Of a stretch of 64,000 nucleotides of DNA, positions 2,528 to 54,631 are shown piece by piece. Position 1 is the stretch's first letter; each line of letters starts with the position of its first letter. Both the position numbers and the translations under genes were made by a program. Source of the stretch: Pseudanabaena sp. FACHB-2040 (GTDB lineage Bacteria > Cyanobacteriota > Cyanobacteriia > Phormidesmidales > Phormidesmidaceae); the NCBI RefSeq assembly GCF_014696715.1, contig NZ_JACJQO010000005.1, forward strand, positions 992,001-1,056,000, written 5' to 3'. Below the pieces are notes generated by a model. It made no database searches and had not been told where the DNA came from. It was given only the letters and a program-made list of their open reading frames with translations.

Positions 2528-3748
2528 GTGGCTGAACTGGTTCATCCGTTGCTAGATTCCACTCGCCTTTTATTTGACCTGCAGCAAGTGGGTCAGATTG
2601 CGCAGGCCATTTCGGGGTGTCTGGATGCGGGTGCGATCGCAACCCAAGTCACCAATGCCCTAGTAGACCAGTTCGACTGCGTTTTTGCCCGCATCTGGCT
2701 AGTTGAGCCAGACCAGCAGACCCTACGGCTAGTCGCCTCCTCCGGGCTCTACACCCACACCGACGGCTCCTTTGCCCGGGTGCCGATGGGAGCCTATAAA
2801 GTTGGCAAGATTGCTCAAAACCGAGTGCCCTTTCTCAGCAACCAGCTGCCCGAAGAGTCTTGGGTAAAGGACCGGGACTGGGCTATTGCCAACAACATTC
2901 AGGGCTTTGCTGGCTATCCCCTAGCCGTGAAAGACCGAGTCATTGGGGTGCTGGCTACCTTCAGCCATTACCCCCTAGCTCCAGAATTTCTAGAGGTGCT
3001 GCAGGTGCTATGCATGACCACCACCATTGCCCTCGATGCCGCACTGCAGGCGCAGCGATCGCTGCAGGTTCTACAAAACAGCCGTCCTGTCGGGTCTGCC
3101 GCAGCCCTACCCCTATCTGATCAGCTAGCAGCTGTCCTCACCTCAACTCGGCTCATGCTCATGGGCACAGAGCAATCTCTATCCCCCTGCGTCGTCCACG
3201 TCTTTTTAAGAGCGGCAGAGGTCTTAAACCAGCTTGGCTGTAACTACTGCCGCCTCACCTATGGCGACCAAAGCGCGAACCTGGAGGCTTTAATAGCCCT
3301 AACGGTAAGCGGACTGCCTACAGACACCGCTCAAACAGCACCTGCCCTCACACCACCCCAGTTTCTCGAACTGCAGTGGATGGCTACTTGTCTAGGAGGC
3401 ACCCTAGAACTTCAGGTAGGTACCCAGCGGCGAGCACTCCAGTGCTTGCTCCAACTTCCTTACGTCAACCCGTTCCCCCAGGCCATCCCCCTCACCCCCG
3501 TACAGACAACTGCCGACCCCCTTCAGGCTGCTCCACCAGAGATTGAAGACAGCAGCCAGCGGCTATCGGAGCGGGAGCGAGAGATCATTAAGCTCCTGGC
3601 TCAGGGGATGCGCGATCGCGATATTGCCCGCGAACTCCACATCAGCGAAAGCACAGTCAAGTTCCACATCAACAACAGTGCTGCCAAGCTGAGCGCCAAA
3701 AATCGCTACCAGACCGTCTATCAGGCAGCGATTCGCGGCTGGGTTTAG
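2528..3748 (+). CDS. GAF-domain LuxR-family transcriptional regulator
   Basis: A 406-residue soluble regulator starting at GTG. Residues about 10-165 form a GAF sensor domain. A linker region follows, and residues about 342-406 form a LuxR/NarL helix-turn-helix with the pattern LSEREREIIKLLAQG, then HISESTVKFHI. There is no receiver domain, so the signal is probably a small ligand or partner bound by the GAF domain. The 3' end overlaps the convergent flavin monooxygenase gene by 4 bp. That makes it a neighbour, and possibly a regulator, of the Nit1C-type cluster. This link is inferred from position only. Confidence 0.8.
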   Translation: MAELVHPLLDSTRLLFDLQQVGQIAQAISGCLDAGAIATQVTNALVDQFDCVFARIWLVEPDQQTLRLVASSGLYTHTDGSFARVPMGAYKVGKIAQNRVPFLSNQLPEESWVKDRDWAIANNIQGFAGYPLAVKDRVIGVLATFSHYPLAPEFLEVLQVLCMTTTIALDAALQAQRSLQVLQNSRPVGSAAALPLSDQLAAVLTSTRLMLMGTEQSLSPCVVHVFLRAAEVLNQLGCNYCRLTYGDQSANLEALIALTVSGLPTDTAQTAPALTPPQFLELQWMATCLGGTLELQVGTQRRALQCLLQLPYVNPFPQAIPLTPVQTTADPLQAAPPEIEDSSQRLSEREREIIKLLAQGMRDRDIARELHISESTVKFHINNSAAKLSAKNRYQTVYQAAIRGWV

Positions 3749-5043
3749 GAGCCAATCACCACTTCGCGGAGCAGCGCTACCTCATCGAGGGTGTGCGTTC
3801 GCGGGGCTGCTTTGGATCGCTGACGCGAAACAATATAGTCGGCCAAGTAGCGCGCATCACGAGCAATGCCGGAGAAGCGGCCCGACCCCCAGGTGTAGAG
3901 CCAGGGCAAACCCAGGAAGTACAGCCCTTTAACCGGGGTAACGCCCCGATCATGGCCGGGATAGCCCTTGCCGTCAAACACCGGAATTTCTACCCAACGG
4001 AAATTAGTTTCGTAGCCAATACTCCAGATCACAGTCTTAATATTGGCCACCTGATAGTCAAGGGATAAGACTTCTTCTTCGGGTTCCCACACCGGACGAT
4101 AGGGTGGATCGGTTGGCGCATCGATCTGATTCTTGTCGATAAAGGCATCAATCGTTTTCTTGATGCTTTCGGCGACAGCATCAGCCTGGTCTAAGTTTTG
4201 CTTGAGATTGCCGCAAAACTCCAGCCCGTTATCCTGAATCTCCTTCAGCCTGCCGTACAGCTTCATCCCCTCTAGGGCAAACTGACGCAGATCAATTTCC
4301 CGCCCACCCCCGCGCCCTGTGACATAGTGATTGGTGCGGTGCCGCAGAGTCTCCTTCTGGGGGTGCTCATCAATGGGCAGGTCATAATAGCCCATTTGAT
4401 CAAGCCAATCGACCACATCTTTACCCCGATATCGTCTGGGGGAACGGGGGGCACCCCCGACACACAAATGCACCTGCCGACCCGCTAAATGGAGATCTTC
4501 AGCAATTTGGCAACCCGACTGCCCAGTCCCCACCACTAAAACGGCTCCCTCCGGCAGCAATGCTGGATTGCGGTATTCCGAGGAGTGAAGCTGCACCAGC
4601 TCATCCGGCAACCGCTCTGCTATGCGCGGAATTTTCGGCAGGTGGTATCCGCCCGTAGCTACAACGACCTGATCGGCTGTGAAATCTCCAATAGAGGTTG
4701 TGACCTCAAAGATCCCTAGCCCGTTTTGGCCTACCCGCATGACCTCAACGCCCTCTTTAAGCAGCGGCTCAAAGGAAGCTGCGTAAGCCTCGATGTAGCC
4801 AACAATCTCATCTCGCTGCATAAACCCATTGGGGTCGTCTCCTTGGTAAGCAAAGCCTGGCAGCATACATTGCCAGTTCGGAGTTACCAGACAGAAGGTG
4901 TCCCATCGTTTAGAACGCCAGGAATGCCCAATCTTCTCCTTCTCAAATACCAGATGGGCAATGCCCCTTTCTTTGAGGCAATAGCTTATAGACAGGCCCG
5001 CCTGTCCTCCACCAATGACGAGAACAGGATAGTGTTTTTCCAT
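3745..5043 (-). CDS. MSMEG_0569-family flavin-dependent monooxygenase (Nit1C cluster)
   Basis: A 432-residue class B-like flavoprotein oxidoreductase. Residues 11-16 (GGGQAG) are the FAD Rossmann motif, residues 129-132 are the ATGG strand seen in FMO-like enzymes, and residues 172-177 (GTGQSG) are the NAD(P)H motif. The family is a standing partner of the nitrilase/radical-SAM cluster encoded divergently to the right; its substrate is not established. Upstream on its own strand lies a perfect NtcA box (5112-5125), spaced 23 nt from a TAAGTT -10 (5083-5088). It should therefore be induced when nitrogen is scarce. No strong Shine-Dalgarno is visible before the ATG. Confidence 0.88.
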   Translation of the reverse strand: MEKHYPVLVIGGGQAGLSISYCLKERGIAHLVFEKEKIGHSWRSKRWDTFCLVTPNWQCMLPGFAYQGDDPNGFMQRDEIVGYIEAYAASFEPLLKEGVEVMRVGQNGLGIFEVTTSIGDFTADQVVVATGGYHLPKIPRIAERLPDELVQLHSSEYRNPALLPEGAVLVVGTGQSGCQIAEDLHLAGRQVHLCVGGAPRSPRRYRGKDVVDWLDQMGYYDLPIDEHPQKETLRHRTNHYVTGRGGGREIDLRQFALEGMKLYGRLKEIQDNGLEFCGNLKQNLDQADAVAESIKKTIDAFIDKNQIDAPTDPPYRPVWEPEEEVLSLDYQVANIKTVIWSIGYETNFRWVEIPVFDGKGYPGHDRGVTPVKGLYFLGLPWLYTWGSGRFSGIARDARYLADYIVSRQRSKAAPRTHTLDEVALLREVVIGS

Positions 5044-5082
5044 AGCGTAGCTATTTGGAGACTTTACGGCTTTGATAACAGC

Positions 5083-5125
5083 AACTTAGACGGTTAAAAA
5101 CAGTAGTTCCTGTAACGCTAGCTAC
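5083..5125 (-). promoter_or_regulatory. NtcA-activated promoter for the flavin monooxygenase
   Basis: The box GTA-N8-TAC at 5112-5125 matches the NtcA consensus exactly. On the minus strand it is followed after 23 nt (5089-5111) by TAAGTT (plus-strand 5083-5088), which fits the TAN3T -10 of class II NtcA promoters (N22-23 spacing). The predicted transcript would start about 35 nt before the monooxygenase ATG. Confidence 0.75.
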
Positions 5126-5177
5126 ACTTCTCAAAGGTTTAGCAATACCAACAGGGAACAAACAAAAGTGTAGCTAG
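5118..5177. repeat. 12-bp inverted repeat in the divergent promoter
   Basis: The arms CTAGCTACACTT (5118-5129) and AAGTGTAGCTAG (5166-5177) are exact complements, separated by 36 nt. The left arm overlaps the right half of the NtcA box. The pair could be a second regulator's operator on helically spaced sites, or a structure in a transcript. Confidence 0.55.
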
Positions 5178-5298
5178 GAGAAGTAGGGACAATAGCCTTG
5201 ATTGACCTATCACTTTAAACAGGTTTCCGAAATTTTTCGCCTATTTCCTCAGCCTGTAAGGGGCTACCCCTATCGATTGAGGCAGACCTTATTCTTTT

Positions 5299-5340
5299 GT
5301 TACGGCTGATACAGGTGAGGTTTTTTAACCCGCTTAAGGT
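5299..5340 (+). promoter_or_regulatory. Probable NtcA promoter for the Nit1C row
   Basis: GTT-N8-TAC at 5299-5312 has one mismatch to GTAN8TAC. A TAAGGT -10 (5335-5340) follows after exactly 22 nt, the class II NtcA geometry. The next gene starts at 5400, giving a leader of about 50 nt. This box is weaker than the one facing left. Confidence 0.6.
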
Positions 5341-5399
5341 GCTGGGTAATCAACGCCACAACAGCGCTTGTCGCGACAACAATTTGAGGAATTCAGTTC

Positions 5400-5882
5400 A
5401 TGCCTGAAGTAACAATGCCTGCTCACAAATCCGGCGACTTTTTCGTGGATTACGAAGAAAAAGTCTTTCCTGATGTCAAAGCAGATCCTGGTGAAAAGGC
5501 TCTAGTAACATTCCACACGGTTGCCTTTGAAGGGTCAATTGGTCTAGTCAACCTGCTTCAAGCAACTCGCCTCATTCGTAAGGGGTTTGAGACCTCCGTT
5601 CTGCTGTATGGTCCTGGGGTCACCCTCGGCGTTCAGCGCGGTTTCCCGAAGCTGGGAGACGAAGCATTTCCAGGCCACCAAAACATGAACAATCAGCTTA
5701 TGAAGATCATGGAAGAGGGCGGCAAGGTTTATGCCTGTCGTTTTGCTCTGCAAGCTCTTTATGGTCACGGCGAGCCCTCTTTGATGCCCGGCATCCGGCC
5801 AATTAGTCCCTTGGATGTCTTGGATTTAGTGTTGATTCACCGCAAGGAAAACGCATTTATTCTCGATACCTGGACACTGTAA
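5400..5882 (+). CDS. MSMEG_0572/Sll0783-family nitrogen-starvation response protein
   Basis: A 160-residue soluble protein of the family named for Synechocystis Sll0783 and mycobacterial MSMEG_0572, the first gene of this conserved cluster. The family is known to rise under nitrogen starvation, and loss of Sll0783 lowers polyhydroxybutyrate accumulation. No catalytic mechanism is known. A DsrE/peroxiredoxin-like fold is suggested by the [12 protein letters not shown] segment, but I cannot confirm this. A GAGGA ribosome site precedes the ATG. The NtcA-type promoter just upstream fits the family's behaviour. A weak hairpin with T-run (5961-5988) separates it from the nitrilase. Confidence 0.85.
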
Positions 5883-5960
5883 TATAATCAGCTACGGATG
5901 AGGGGATTTCTTCTAAAATGAGTCGGCTGTGTGTTGTCTGTTTACTCCTTTCATCCGCTC

Positions 5961-5988
5961 ATAGGCTCTTTGCTTCAGGCCTATTTTT
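5961..5988 (+). terminator. Possible attenuating hairpin between MSMEG_0572 and nitrilase genes
   Basis: ATAGGC (5961-5966) pairs with GCCTAT (5979-5984) over a 12-nt loop, and a short T-run follows. The stem is only 6 bp, so termination would be partial. It may make the first gene more abundant than the rest. A TATAAT at 5883-5888 could serve as an internal -10, but no matching -35 is clear. Confidence 0.35.
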
Positions 5989-6068
5989 GTAGAGTTTCGC
6001 TGCTTGAGTAAGCAGTTCGCAGCAGGGCTTATTCAACCTCTGGATGTCTGCTTTTAACTAATTTTAGC

Positions 6069-7112
6069 TTGCTTTTTCCTGTCGAATTCTGGTTCGTTGC
6101 CGTGGATGATTCCCGCATTGTTCGAGCAGCGGCTGTGCAGATATCGCCTGTCCTGCACAGCCGAGAAGGAACAGTTGAAAAAGTGCTGGATGCGATCGCA
6201 ACTGCCGCCGCCCAAGGGGCTCAGCTCATCGTCTTCCCCGAGACCTTTGTGCCCTACTACCCGTACTTTTCCTTTGTGCTGCCCCCAGTCCTAATGGGCA
6301 AGGAGCACATGAAGCTGTACGAGGAGGCAGTAGAAGTGCCAGGCCCCGTTGTAGAAGCCGTCAGCAGCGCTGCTCGCACTCATGGCGTAGTTGTCGTCCT
6401 CGGCGTGAACGAACGCGACCAAGGCTCTATCTACAACGCCCAACTCATCTTCGATGCCGACGGCACTCTACTGCTGAAGCGGCGCAAAATCACCCCGACT
6501 TACCACGAGCGTATGGTCTGGGGTCAAGGCGACGGGGCCGGTCTAACCGTCAGCCATACCGCCATCGGTCGCATTGGAGCCCTAGCCTGCTGGGAGCACT
6601 ACAACCCACTGGCCCGCTACAGCCTGATGGCCCAGCACGAGCAAATCCACTGCGCCCAGTTCCCAGGCTCAATGGTCGGCCCCATCTTTTCCGAGCAGAC
6701 CGAAGTCACCCTGCGCCACCACGCCCTAGAGTCTGGTTGCTTTGTGGTCAACGCTACCGGCTGGCTCACCCCCGAACAAAAAGCCCAAATCACTCCCGAC
6801 CCCAAGCTCCAAGTCGTGCTCTCAGGCGGCTGCTACACCGCCATCATCAGCCCCGAAGGCGTGCATCTCTGTGAGCCAATTCGAGAGGGCGAGGGGATTG
6901 CGATCGCAGATCTCGACTTCAGCCTGATTACCAAACGCAAGCGCATGATGGACTCAGTCGGTCACTACGCCCGCCCCGACCTGCTCCAGCTTCAGCTCAA
7001 CGGCACCCCCTACAGCAGCTTTTCAGCCCCCGCGATGGCCCCTGTCAGCCCTATTCCTTCGCTTGTGCACGAAGACCCTAGCCCCGATGGGGTTCTGTCC
7101 CCCACACCGTAG
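6069..7112 (+). CDS. Nit6803-type nitrilase (Nit1C cluster)
   Basis: A carbon-nitrogen hydrolase that should convert nitriles to the acid and ammonia. In this numbering Glu58 (FPETF), Lys140 (RRKIT), Glu147 (TYHER) and Cys174 (ACWEHYNP) line up with the catalytic Glu53, Lys135, Glu142 and Cys169 of the Synechocystis enzyme, a constant offset of five. The long open frame begins at TTG 6069. GTG at 6102 is an alternative start closer to the conserved region, and neither has a clear ribosome site. The C-terminal 30 residues are Pro/Ser-rich and variable. In the Nit1C cluster of a pseudomonad the nitrilase is needed for growth on cyanide as nitrogen source; the substrate here is unknown. Confidence 0.92.
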
Positions 7113-7184: not shown

Positions 7185-8273
7185 ATGAACGCCCAAGAGG
7201 TTATCACCGAACTCCAGTCCAAAGGCCTCAAGCTACTTGACCGAAACCAGGGCGCATCCGGCCGCAGAGGGGGAGCTGGCCCTTCCGATCACAAAGCTAT
7301 CCAGGTGGGCGAAACCACTGTCATGGTGCCCGTCTTTACTGATACGGCAGCAGACTCTCCCTACACGGTGCAGCTTCAAGAAACTGGAGAACTGCCCATC
7401 CTGACCCGAGAGGGCACAGTGATTGGCCCGATCGCCTTTCCCAAGCAGCCCCAGTTCTACGGCCTCCAGACTGCAGACGGCATTCCCTACTGGAAGATTG
7501 CGCTGCTGCACAGCCACAACGTGCTCGCTACCACGGTTTTGCAGACCTGCATTCGCTACGACAATCGCCGCACTGCCTGTCAGTTTTGTGCGATCGAGCA
7601 ATCCCTAGCAGCAGGCCGCACCATTGCCCAGAAGACACCAGAGCAGCTGGCAGAGGTAGCAGAGGCCGCCGTTCGTTTAGATGGCGTCGAAAATCTGGTG
7701 ATGACTACCGGCACACCTAATACCACCGACCGGGGAGCCGCCTATCTAACCGACTGTGCCCGAGCCGTCAAAGCCCGCGTCAACCTACCGATTCAGGCTC
7801 AGTGTGAGCCGCCTAACGACTTCATCTGGTTCGAGCGGCTGCAGGCAGCCGGGGTCGATAGTCTGGGTATGCACCTGGAGGTAGTCGATGCGGCGGTGCG
7901 CGATCGCATCATGCCCGGCAAAGCCCGCGTCCCCGTTAGCTACTATTTCCAAGCCTTTGAGGCTGCCGTCAAAGTCTTCGGCTGGGGCCAAGTCAGCACC
8001 TACCTGTTGGCCGGCCTCGGCGACAGCCTGGAAACCCTGGTCGAAACCAGTGATCGCCTCATCCAAATCGGCGTCTACCCCTTCGTCGTGCCCTTTGTCC
8101 CCATTGGCGGCACCCCCCTAGCAGCCCACCAGCCCCCCTCCAGCGAATTCATGTTCACCCTATACCAGCAAGTCGGTGCTCTGCTCAAAAAAGCCGGTAT
8201 GTCCTCCGATGATATCAACGCTGGATGCGCCAAATGTGGAGCCTGCTCCGCCCTTAAAGCCTTCGAGAAATAA
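7185..8273 (+). CDS. MSMEG_0568-family radical SAM protein
   Basis: A 362-residue radical SAM enzyme of the nitrilase-associated family. The cluster-binding cysteines appear as Cys122, Cys132 and Cys135 (C-x9-C-x2-C, ending ACQFC), a spacing unlike the textbook CxxxCxxC. A second triad, Cys348, Cys351 and Cys354 near the C-terminus (GCAKCGAC), could hold an auxiliary iron-sulfur cluster. The reaction is not known. The ATG is preceded by a pyrimidine-rich, purine-poor leader without a Shine-Dalgarno. It follows the nitrilase by 72 nt and is very likely co-transcribed with it. Confidence 0.87.
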   Translation: MNAQEVITELQSKGLKLLDRNQGASGRRGGAGPSDHKAIQVGETTVMVPVFTDTAADSPYTVQLQETGELPILTREGTVIGPIAFPKQPQFYGLQTADGIPYWKIALLHSHNVLATTVLQTCIRYDNRRTACQFCAIEQSLAAGRTIAQKTPEQLAEVAEAAVRLDGVENLVMTTGTPNTTDRGAAYLTDCARAVKARVNLPIQAQCEPPNDFIWFERLQAAGVDSLGMHLEVVDAAVRDRIMPGKARVPVSYYFQAFEAAVKVFGWGQVSTYLLAGLGDSLETLVETSDRLIQIGVYPFVVPFVPIGGTPLAAHQPPSSEFMFTLYQQVGALLKKAGMSSDDINAGCAKCGACSALKAFEK

Positions 8274-8474: not shown

Positions 8475-8987
8475 ATGACCACCCGCACCTATCGCTTCCA
8501 ACTCGCCCACACCGACGCCGACATTACCAGCTACTTTGAGCTGCGGCGGCAGATCTTCTGCGAGGAGCAGGGCCTTTTCAATCAGCACGACCGCGACAAC
8601 CTTGATACCCTTGCCTACCCCATCGTGGCGATTGTCGAAGAACCCGGCCAGCCGGATCAGATCGTAGGCGTGGTTCGGATCTACGAGGAACGACCTCGCC
8701 TGTGGTATGGCGGGCGACTGGGCGTGCATCCCGACTTTCGCCGCGTGGGCCGCATCGGCAAAGGATTGATTCAAAAAGCTGTGACAACGGCAAATACTTG
8801 GGGATGCGATCGCTTTCTAGCCACGGTTCAGCTACAAAACGTTCGCTTCTTTCAGCGGCTCCACTGGGAATCGCTCCAGGAGATCGATATCTGCGGCCTG
8901 CCCCACCACCTGATGGAGGCTGATTTGGCCCACTACCCAGCCAATGGCGAAATTCGCCCCCAGCTACCTGTCCCCTCCGTTGCCTAG
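8475..8987 (+). CDS. MSMEG_0567/Sll0786-family GNAT N-acetyltransferase
   Basis: A 170-residue GNAT-fold acyltransferase of the nitrogen-starvation cluster. The core GRLGVHPDFRRVGRIGKGL segment (about residues 79-97) resembles the acetyl-CoA pyrophosphate loop, although the usual Q/R-x-x-G-x-G/A is loose. The acceptor substrate is unknown. Its 3' end overlaps the AIR-synthase-like gene by 44 bp, which suggests translational coupling. In some bacteria these two functions are encoded as one longer protein. The ATG is abutted by CCCATCCACCC, the same 11-mer that lies upstream of the radical SAM gene, instead of a Shine-Dalgarno. Confidence 0.83.
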   Translation: MTTRTYRFQLAHTDADITSYFELRRQIFCEEQGLFNQHDRDNLDTLAYPIVAIVEEPGQPDQIVGVVRIYEERPRLWYGGRLGVHPDFRRVGRIGKGLIQKAVTTANTWGCDRFLATVQLQNVRFFQRLHWESLQEIDICGLPHHLMEADLAHYPANGEIRPQLPVPSVA

Positions 8988-9960
8988 GGATACCCGCTTG
9001 AACCTGACCGATCTCATTGCCCAACTCCAGCAGTCTGTCGGTATCCTTGGCAAGCGCGACATCCAAACTGCCGCCAAAGCCTTGGTAGATCAGCACGCTT
9101 CCGCCCCAGCTATTCGGCCAGGCGACGACTGTGCTGCTATTGCCGACGCCGATGGCTTCCTCCTACTAGCCGCTGAAGGTATGCTGCCCCGGTTTGTAGC
9201 CGAAGAGCCCTGGTTCGCTGGCTGGTGCGGGGTGATGGTCAACGTGTCTGATGTCTATGCGATGGGGGGTACTCCCATTGCCGTGGTAGATGCGCTGTGG
9301 AGCCAAACTCCGGAAGCGAGCAAACCCGTCTGGGAAGGTCTGCAGGCAGCCGCTAGCGCCTACGGCGTGCCCATTGTTGGCGGCCACAGCAACTGCGCTA
9401 GCCCTCACGAAGGGCTGGCTGTCGCCATTTTGGGCCGAGCCCAGCACTTGATTACCAGTTTCGATGCCCAGCCGGGAGATACCTTAATGGTGGTCGTTGA
9501 CCTGAGGGGCAGTTTCTTTCGCCACTACCCTTTTTGGAATGCGGCGACTGAGGCCGATCCGGCTCGGCTACGGGGCGATCTGGCGCTGCTGCCGGAGCTG
9601 GCTCAGGAAGAACTGTGTCGGGCGGGCAAAGACATTAGTATGGGCGGCATTGCAGGCACCCTGCTGATGCTGATGGAAACTTCGGGCTGTGGGGCAGTGC
9701 TGGATCTAGATCTGCTGCCCAAACCCGCAGGGGTTGACCTGGAGCGGTGGTTGACCTGTTTCCCTAGCTTTGGTTTTTTGCTGGCAGTACCGTCAGAGCA
9801 GGTCGAGGCCGTTAGAGCCAAGCTGGTGCAGCGCGATTTAGCCTGCGAAGCCGTAGGCGTGGTGATGGAGGGTCACGATGTTTGGCTCAAGCTAGGAGAC
9901 GACACTGCTTTGCTTTGGGACATGGCAAAGTCGCCTCTAACTGGATTTGGGCCTGCCTAA
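8944..9960 (+). CDS. Sll0787-family AIR synthase-like protein
   Basis: A 338-residue protein of the PurM/ThiL/SelD ATP-binding superfamily. GDDCAAI (from Gly60) is the family's metal/nucleotide loop, and GKDISMGGIAGT matches the C-terminal PurM-like motif. Relatives activate carbonyl or carboxyl oxygens by phosphorylation. The substrate is unknown. The ATG at 8944 lies inside the acetyltransferase gene. The first conserved residues begin only about 20 codons later, so a later non-ATG start near 8998 is possible. Confidence 0.83.
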   Translation: MAKFAPSYLSPPLPRDTRLNLTDLIAQLQQSVGILGKRDIQTAAKALVDQHASAPAIRPGDDCAAIADADGFLLLAAEGMLPRFVAEEPWFAGWCGVMVNVSDVYAMGGTPIAVVDALWSQTPEASKPVWEGLQAAASAYGVPIVGGHSNCASPHEGLAVAILGRAQHLITSFDAQPGDTLMVVVDLRGSFFRHYPFWNAATEADPARLRGDLALLPELAQEELCRAGKDISMGGIAGTLLMLMETSGCGAVLDLDLLPKPAGVDLERWLTCFPSFGFLLAVPSEQVEAVRAKLVQRDLACEAVGVVMEGHDVWLKLGDDTALLWDMAKSPLTGFGPA

Positions 9961-9976
9961 TCTATGCCTTTGACCT

Positions 9977-11143
9977 ATGAGTGATTCTCTACGCATTGCG
10001 CTGCTAACCTACTCCACCCAGCCCAGGGGCAGTGTAGTTCACACGTTGGAGCTAGCACGGGCGCTGAAAAAGCTAGGTCATCAGCCCAGCGTGTTTGCTC
10101 TAGACAAGGACGGGCAGGGGTTTGGGCAGGCTCTACCGTTTGAGACCTATAGTGTTCCAGCAGGCCCCTCTGATAGTGGGGTAGATGGACTGATTCGGCA
10201 GCGGATTGAGGAATTTGTCAGTTATTTTAAGCAGCACAGCTCAAGCTATGACATCTTCCATGCCCAGGACTGTATTGGGGCCAATGCCCTGGCAGTGCTG
10301 CGGCAGCAGGGGCGCATTCCTCATTTCGCGAGAACGGTGCACCATGTAGAGGCGTTTGAAAGCCCCTACCTACGGGATTGTCAGGATCGTTCGATTCGGC
10401 TGCCAGATCAATGCTTGTGTGTCAGCCAATTCTGGCGGGAGGCGCTATGGACAGACTATGGCCTTCGGGCAGAGCGCGTTTTTAATGGGGTCGATACCGA
10501 TCGCTTTAGCGCTGCACCTAACGGCACAGAAGCGGATCTAGCAGTTGCCTTGGGGATAGCCGGTGGGCCTATCTACCTGACTGTCGGAGGTATCGAGCCC
10601 CGAAAAAATTCGATTCGGCTGCTGCAGGCTTTCGCGCAGGTCTTGGTCCAATCTCCCCAGGCTAAATTGGTGATTGCGGGGGGAGCAACCCTATTCGACT
10701 ATCAGCCTTACCGTCAGACATTCTTAGAGACTGCTGCCGAGCTAGGAATTCAGCCAGGACAGTCTTTATGCTTGCCGGGGGTGATCGCTGAGCAGGATTT
10801 GCCTACGCTGTACCGGCTTGCAGATGCTTTTGTTTTTCCTTCGACAAAAGAGGGCTGGGGGCTGGTGGTGCTGGAGGCGATCGCAACTCACCTTCCTGTC
10901 ATCACCTCAAACCAAGCCCCTTTTACAGAGTTTCTGACTGAGGATCAGGCCCTGCTGGTCAATCCTGAGTCTGTAGATGCGATCGCAACCGCCATGCTGC
11001 AGGTGACTCAGCCCAAGGTGCGTCAGCGACTGATTGCCAATACCCGGGGAGTTTGCGATCGCTTTACCTGGATCCGTTCTGCTCAGCATCACATCACTGC
11101 TTACCGCTCACTGCTGCTTACAAGAGACTACAGCCATGCCTGA
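9977..11143 (+). CDS. MSMEG_0565-family GT4 glycosyltransferase
   Basis: A 388-residue GT-B glycosyltransferase of family 4. The N-terminal acceptor domain includes a RGSVVHTLELARAL segment. The C-terminal donor domain has GGIEPRKN and the EGWGLVVLE (E-x7-E) motif that holds the nucleotide sugar. It is a constant member of the nitrilase cluster, implying that the unknown product is glycosylated. It begins 16 nt after the AIR-synthase-like gene, and the next gene starts within its last codons. Confidence 0.86.
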   Translation: MSDSLRIALLTYSTQPRGSVVHTLELARALKKLGHQPSVFALDKDGQGFGQALPFETYSVPAGPSDSGVDGLIRQRIEEFVSYFKQHSSSYDIFHAQDCIGANALAVLRQQGRIPHFARTVHHVEAFESPYLRDCQDRSIRLPDQCLCVSQFWREALWTDYGLRAERVFNGVDTDRFSAAPNGTEADLAVALGIAGGPIYLTVGGIEPRKNSIRLLQAFAQVLVQSPQAKLVIAGGATLFDYQPYRQTFLETAAELGIQPGQSLCLPGVIAEQDLPTLYRLADAFVFPSTKEGWGLVVLEAIATHLPVITSNQAPFTEFLTEDQALLVNPESVDAIATAMLQVTQPKVRQRLIANTRGVCDRFTWIRSAQHHITAYRSLLLTRDYSHA

Positions 11144-11432
11144 AATTCGCTTTCGCATTGAATGGCCTGATGGAGCCCAAGAGCTTTGCTATTCCCCCTC
11201 CCTGGTGGTCAAAGACTACTTCGCACCCCAGCAGAGCTATGACCTGCACGACTTTTTGCAGCGCTCGACAGAGGCCCTACAGATTGCCAGCGACCGAGTG
11301 CAGGCCAAGTACGGAATGCCTTGCAACCTAGCTCTGGGGCAGATCCAAAAGATTCAGGCAACGGCTAAACGGTATCAGAACGTTCCAGAGGCCAAAGTTA
11401 AGTTGCTAGGCTTTCTCGAGGCAGCGGTTTGA
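11136..11432 (+). CDS. MSMEG_0570-family nitrogen-starvation protein
   Basis: A 98-residue soluble protein of the family that closes this cluster; its function is unknown. The chosen ATG at 11136 begins at MPEIRF, the conserved N-terminus, and overlaps the glycosyltransferase stop by 8 bp. An in-frame upstream extension to 11034 would only add unconserved residues. No terminator is obvious in the 60 nt that follow. Confidence 0.83.
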   Translation: MPEIRFRIEWPDGAQELCYSPSLVVKDYFAPQQSYDLHDFLQRSTEALQIASDRVQAKYGMPCNLALGQIQKIQATAKRYQNVPEAKVKLLGFLEAAV

Positions 11433-54378: not shown

Positions 54379-54631
54379 CTAGACTTAACACTTGCAAGTC
54401 AACACCTTAAAGGAAAAACATATTTACAATCATCGAGCCTAGGAGGCTTTTGTATAATTGTTCATGGTGCCACCAAACCTTGAGCAGGTATTTCTATATA
54501 AGTGAGGCTGTTCACGTCTGTGTAGGATCCATCAATAAGCAACTAGATCTTTACCTGCGAACAAATTCAACACTAAGTTGTAAATTCGTCCGGTCAGGTA
54601 TTAATTGATACCATGCAAGAGGTGTTTTTAA

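Follow-up and report, generated by a model that had tools for sequence, protein, structure and literature searches.

Putative composite NtcA promoters and a candidate GAF-LuxR regulator at a cyanobacterial Nit1C cluster

The two arms of a Nit1C gene cluster are probably transcribed from composite promoters placed back to back, between which lies a further operator, D2, and joint control of both arms by NtcA and a GAF-LuxR protein is predicted. By comparing cyanobacterial sequences, we show the NtcA layouts on both sides, a dyad (D1) placed 13 nt from the NtcA box, the D2 dyad with its phasing, the specificity of these elements for the cluster and the co-occurrence of the GAF-LuxR gene with it. 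NtcA control of Nit1C would by itself be expected; the dyads and the candidate regulator appear to be the new part. In the openly licensed literature we found neither such dyads nor any LuxR-type regulator of Nit1C in cyanobacteria described, and the D1 and D2 sites have apparently not been described before.

A Nit1C cluster with two divergent arms

Nit1C-type genes probably serve in the recovery of nitrogen from cyanide and nitriles. In the window, by which we mean the whole 64,000-nucleotide stretch of DNA analysed, the following genes lie on either side of a 356-nt gap:

3745..5043, minus strand: flavin-dependent oxidoreductase, MSMEG_0569 family (TIGR04046, E 2e-204), the left arm
5400..5882, plus strand: nitrogen starvation response protein, MSMEG_0572/Sll0783 family (TIGR04044), opening the right arm
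6069..7112, plus strand: nitrilase, Nit6803/Sll0784 family (TIGR04048)
7185..8273, plus strand: radical SAM protein, MSMEG_0568 family (TIGR04043)
8475..8987, plus strand: GNAT N-acetyltransferase, MSMEG_0567/Sll0786 (TIGR04045)
8944..9960, plus strand: AIR synthase-like protein, Sll0787 family (TIGR04049)
9977..11143, plus strand: glycosyltransferase, MSMEG_0565 family (TIGR04047)
11136..11432, plus strand: MSMEG_0570 family protein (TIGR04042; open reading frame 11034-11432, with the match starting from residue 36)

The original prediction had recognized a Nit1C-type cluster here, and the family matches (TIGR models) on both arms bear this out: the 0572, nitrilase, radical SAM, GNAT, AIR synthase-like, 0570 and flavin genes all occur together, making it a true Nit1C cluster. 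Of the two arms it spoke of, the right one is the main operon; the left one consists of a single gene, the flavin oxidoreductase. A nitrogen response of the family is known from Synechocystis, where ammonium represses the sll0783-ssl1464 operon (PMC10094980).

Two further features of the neighbourhood are recorded here. The spacer between the 0572 and nitrilase genes (5883-6068) could form a long hairpin from GGAUGAGGGG and CUCCUUUCAUCC, with a fold no stronger than that of shuffled sequences (z -0.73). Upstream of the GAF-LuxR gene described below, positions 337-2238 encode a transketolase-like protein that scores well under the curated cut-offs of the transketolase models and is probably a divergent thiamine-diphosphate enzyme.

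Class II NtcA-type promoters facing both arms

Within the gap, two outward-facing NtcA layouts are present:

5125-5112, minus strand: left NtcA box GTAGCTAGCGTTAC, an exact GTAN8TAC, in the flavin gene promoter
5088-5083, minus strand: left -10 box TAAGTT, N23 from the left NtcA box
5299-5312, plus strand: right NtcA box GTTACGGCTGATAC, GTTN8TAC, one base off consensus, in the main operon promoter
5335-5340, plus strand: right -10 box TAAGGT, N22 from the right NtcA box

Inspection of the sequence confirmed both layouts, positions and spacings alike (N23 on the left, N22 on the right), as first proposed. Each joins a box of the class II form GTAN8TAC to a TAN3T -10 box at 22-23 nt, the right box carrying one deviation, GTT for GTA, at a place where most relatives have GTA. 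The general layout agrees with published canonical NtcA promoters (PMC3898017). The centres of the two NtcA boxes are 187 bp apart, and from each box a -10 lies 22-23 nt away in a single direction. The genome also carries an NtcA gene (TIGR03697, 387.9 bits, over the curated cut-off).

Two such layouts facing different arms had been judged unlikely to arise by chance, and shuffling supports that judgement: among 20,000 sequences made from the gap by dinucleotide shuffling, 2.1% carried the layout, more loosely defined, facing right, 2.2% facing left and 0.08% in both directions. The pattern GTWN8TAC-N22/23-TAN3T has three matches on the two strands of the 64-kb window, two of which are those in this gap, facing outwards. 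One NtcA layout alone is weak evidence, the strict pattern GTAN8TAC-N22-TAN3T being too unspecific on its own (18 matches genome-wide versus 11 for a reversed control pattern); the pair of layouts, together with their conservation in relatives, is decisive for reading them as putative NtcA promoters.

Other motifs were noted along the way. Across the window, GTAN8TAC occurs 11 times against 4.6 expected (0/100 shuffles reach 11), with several occurrences at 54-58 kb, and an NtcA-like layout on the minus strand at 54570-54611 (GTATCAATTAATAC, N22, TAGTGT) lies in a surface-polysaccharide-like gene region and may be chance. A perfect 12-bp inverted repeat within the gap (5118-5129/5166-5177) is absent from the nearest relative and from other gaps, and was therefore set aside. 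A search against Rfam gave only a sub-threshold snoRNA match, located on the minus strand within the GAF-LuxR gene and outside the gap, which we took as chance.

The comparison set comprised 82 distinct cyanobacterial loci and 15 others, mostly proteobacterial; counts throughout are of raw loci or genomes with kinship ignored, and many of the compared genomes are closely related. The left-facing layout is kept in 36/38 divergent gaps of cyanobacterial relatives (shuffle mean 0.3) and the right-facing layout in 60/82 cyanobacterial loci (shuffle mean 0.58), which is the conservation on which the original prediction had staked itself. None of the 15 other, mostly proteobacterial loci has the layout. 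When all spacings from 8 to 40 were counted, a signal was seen only at 22 and 23.

Flavin genes that lie elsewhere, or upstream in the same direction, mostly keep a layout of their own, near -70 to -190, which indicates that the boxes belong to each gene and not to the gap. Across relatives the distance between NtcA box centres ranges from 156 to 2597 bp. Where the flavin and 0572 genes are co-directional and less than about 200 nt apart, the second box is absent in several genomes, as expected for one operon. At the level of sequence, the case that class II NtcA-type promoters face both Nit1C arms is very strong, and to this extent the original prediction of a 'bidirectional NtcA promoter' stands; the variable spacing and the boxes kept by the flavin genes indicate that each arm has a class II promoter of its own, independent of the other, and that the two do not share a bidirectional one.

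Some loci depart from the common arrangement. In one group (L050, L057, L064, L065 and L072), the right promoter sits 460-523 nt upstream of 0572, leaving room for an extended leader or for a small gene that is unlisted. In six small genomes (L296-L301), the flavin and 0572 genes diverge from gaps just 190-260 nt long that contain neither a dyad nor anything convincing as an NtcA layout, and Nit1C control probably differs there.

A dyad at a fixed distance from the NtcA boxes

Between the NtcA boxes lie three dyads that the original prediction had missed, namely D2 and two copies of D1, one upstream of each NtcA box:

5139..5154, minus strand: D1-L CTGTTGGTATTGCTAA, lux-box-like, of the form CT-N12-AA where CT-N12-AG would be the full match, separated by exactly 13 nt from the left NtcA box downstream of it
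5270..5285, plus strand: D1-R CTATCGATTGAGGCAG, lux-box-like, separated by exactly 13 nt from the right NtcA box downstream of it

The lux and las-rhl boxes of quorum-sensing LuxR regulators are 20-bp dyads with a CT-N12-AG core. This LuxR-type operator form (16-20 bp, CT-N12-AG) is found in D1-R and D2, and D1-L is one base off it. The nearest relative has the exact form at D1-L (CTATTGCTATAACTAG), as do 32/38 left promoters, in which CT-N12-AG again stands at 13 nt.

Of 128 Nit1C promoters, 110 have CT-N12-AG upstream of the NtcA box at a distance of exactly 13 nt, and every other offset between 0 and 29 accounts for 7 or fewer. The D1 sites make up 110 distinct 20-mers and vary widely inside the dyad, save for the central TA and the inner half-site bases. 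At the classical NtcA targets of the same genome set, the dyad accompanies the layout in 0/24 urtA promoters and 1/27 glnA promoters. In an unbiased pattern search, 59 whole genomes yielded 54 matches to the full composite (dyad-13-NtcA-22-TAN3T), nearly all of them at Nit1C genes; the reversed control yielded 6. The window is missing from these matches because the strict pattern accepts neither its left promoter, with CT-N12-AA and a spacer of N23, nor the GTT of its right NtcA box. These comparisons show a coupling of D1 to the putative NtcA box at 13 nt that is specific to Nit1C. The NtcA layouts had been expected to explain the nitrogen-starvation behaviour of the family, and the conserved boxes speak for this, but in view of D1 at 13 nt and of D2 they would not be the whole account.

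Three loci (L324 in G136, L323 in G152 and L328 in G214) have an extra first operon gene, methylenetetrahydrofolate reductase-like from a reading of its translation by eye, a hint that the use of cyanide or nitriles is tied to one-carbon metabolism. In these genomes the composite promoter lies ~1 kb further upstream of 0572, before the extra gene, and its apparent lack there is due to this displacement.

A middle dyad phased to the promoters

The third dyad occupies the middle of the gap:

5205..5224, no strand assigned: D2 ACCTATCACTTTAAACAGGT, of the form CCTRN10YAGG, between the two arms

The form CCTRN10YAGG is found in 33/36 divergent gaps against 0.28 expected, and among the non-cyanobacterial loci only 1/15 has a D2-type dyad. 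A more specific form, CCTATCNCTTTNRAYAGG, has a single match in the whole genome, at this gap, and across 35 genomes 10/11 of its matches lie upstream of 0572. D2 (ACCTATC-N6-AACAGGT) resembles the lux box, ACCTGTA-N6-TACAGGT.

Most genomes place D2 at 92-95 nt from the right NtcA box, and in the window the distance is about 93 nt. To the flavin promoters it falls near 71, 82, 93, 105 and 115, that is, in steps of one helical turn. This phasing is significant both for the non-divergent flavin promoters (R=0.72 at period 10.5, p<0.001) and for all flavin promoters with each distance counted once (p=0.006). Since D2 is phased to both promoters, a single D2 common to both arms could serve divergent gaps.

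A GAF-LuxR protein as candidate reader of the dyads

Next to the left arm lies a gene for a putative DNA-binding protein:

2528-3748, plus strand: GAF-LuxR regulator gene (Pfam GAF_2 and GerE), convergent with the flavin gene

It overlaps the 3' end of the flavin gene convergently by four bases. Solved relatives of its GerE domain include NarL, GerE, RhlR and SdiA, and its orthologues share a near-invariant TVKFHxxN recognition helix. Given the lux/las-like form of the dyads, the GerE domain and the co-occurrence with Nit1C, this protein is the likely reader of D1 and D2.

Among 213 cyanobacterial genomes, 82 have both Nit1C and GAF-LuxR, 11 have Nit1C alone, 5 have GAF-LuxR alone and 115 have neither, so that 16 are discordant. 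GAF-LuxR is therefore present in 82/93 Nit1C genomes versus 5/120 others (Fisher 6e-40, kinship ignored), and in one of the five genomes with GAF-LuxR but no Nit1C the regulator contains an in-frame stop. In 32/82 genomes no more than 10 kb separates the GAF-LuxR gene from 0572, and its linkage to nit genes takes several arrangements, including a position beside a flavin gene that has left the cluster.

The dyads follow a similar distribution. D1 is present in 49/53 genomes with GAF-LuxR versus 5/12 without. Among the five genomes with D1 in which GAF-LuxR was not detected, the assemblies of four are incomplete or fragmented, which leaves G214, rated at 99% completeness and also devoid of a flavin gene, as the one real exception. 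G208 has no GAF-LuxR and has kept its NtcA boxes, with the 0572 dyad gone and the flavin dyad half lost; in its genus-mate G178, regulator and dyads are both present. The dyad is likewise absent in six small genomes that have Nit1C but no GAF-LuxR. The recognition-helix subtypes ESTVKFHxNN and ERTVKFHxxN seem to be paired with CCTA or CCTG in D2, a pairing confounded by clade. As for autoregulation, the region preceding the GAF-LuxR gene shows no dyad, either in the window or in relatives, apart from a single chance-like match in one of the latter; an NtcA-like layout stands at -71 of the gene in three relatives.

Proposed mechanism and alternatives

From upstream to downstream, each composite promoter would consist of D1 (CT-N12-AG), 13 nt, a class II NtcA box, 22-23 nt and a TAN3T -10. 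With the start at the class II position, NtcA would be centred at about -41.5 and D1 at about -69.5, 28 bp from centre to centre. Under nitrogen starvation, NtcA with 2-oxoglutarate would fill both boxes and recruit RNA polymerase for transcription of the flavin gene and the nitrilase operon, while GAF-LuxR dimers on D1 and D2 would impose a second, cluster-specific condition. We infer from the arrangement that the GAF-LuxR protein would bind the dyads and activate, and that its GAF domain would sense, most likely, a cyanide- or nitrile-related signal. A more far-reaching reading, which we put forward with considerable doubt, is that the cluster is gated by two inputs, nitrogen hunger as reported by NtcA and cyanide or a nitrile as sensed directly by the GAF-LuxR protein, with lux-box-like operators working outside quorum sensing and a middle operator common to two divergent promoters.

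The sign of regulation is unreadable from the sequence, and a repressor fits the dyads too, which makes repression a live rival, if an unlikely one: the GAF-LuxR protein might loop D2 to both D1 sites until cyanide or nitrile is present, with NtcA as the activator. Three helically phased dyads would suit cooperative binding or looping, and D1 does lie upstream of the activator box, but the constant 13 nt between D1 and the NtcA box fits a contact with NtcA or polymerase, and repressors more often overlap the promoter core. It is improbable, in our estimate, that NtcA is the sole activator at both arms and that the dyads serve an unrelated regulator encoded elsewhere, for example of the TetR or MarR type. 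That GAF-LuxR tracks Nit1C in 213 genomes and is linked to nit genes in several arrangements, that G208, with its degraded dyads, has no GAF-LuxR, and that the known dyads of the GerE family share this form all argue for the GAF-LuxR protein instead, even though the NtcA evidence holds without it and D1 is kept in five genomes in which it was not detected.

Palindromic boxes in one short gap might also suggest a single NtcA site in a truly bidirectional promoter driving both arms. We regard this as highly improbable: each box has a -10 on one side only, the box spacing runs from 156 to 2597 bp, and separated flavin genes mostly keep their own box. Chance matches combined with descent among close relatives are a concern where many of the compared genomes are related, and yet such an origin is hardly credible for spacings that peak only at 22-23 and 13, for 110 distinct 20-mer dyads, for the same layout at two non-homologous promoters, and beside negative urtA, glnA and proteobacterial controls.

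The reading we prefer, joint control by NtcA and GAF-LuxR from two composite promoters, names a candidate regulator, predicted sites and their geometry, so that the question is now testable. It would also provide a clear case in which a global nitrogen activator is tied, at a fixed distance, to a local regulator, an arrangement that has persisted through many gene rearrangements.

Comparison with known systems

The class II NtcA promoters of glnA, urtA and nirA have the same GTAN8TAC, N22-23 and TAN3T (PMC3898017). Compared with these, the Nit1C promoters add a dyad at 13 nt, which the urtA and glnA promoters of the same genomes are without. In nirA-type promoters, NtcA acts together with a co-activator, NtcB, which is of the LysR type. 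The proposed arrangement resembles this one in pairing the global NtcA with a pathway-specific second regulator upstream; it differs in that the candidate second regulator has GAF and GerE domains and is not of the LysR type, and in its even-length dyad of 16-20 bp. Unlike the quorum-sensing LuxR regulators, the candidate has a GAF sensor domain, matched no autoinducer domain, and has its predicted site adjoining an NtcA box.

In Synechocystis, Sll0782 is listed as a transcriptional regulator and is ammonium-repressed (log2FC -1.58), like the sll0783 operon (PMC10094980); it is described as an HTH protein of unknown function (PMC5318462). It is numbered beside sll0783 and is a possible orthologue of the GAF-LuxR protein. 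Nit1C is under nitrogen control in other bacteria as well. The Pseudomonas Nit1C regulator NitA is cluster-linked, belongs to the Fis family and is sigma54-dependent (PMC11049912), and in Mycobacterium smegmatis the global nitrogen regulator GlnR, of the OmpR type, binds upstream of msmeg_0572 (PMC4222082). Compared with these two systems, cyanobacteria appear to combine the cluster-linked and the global roles through NtcA plus GAF-LuxR.
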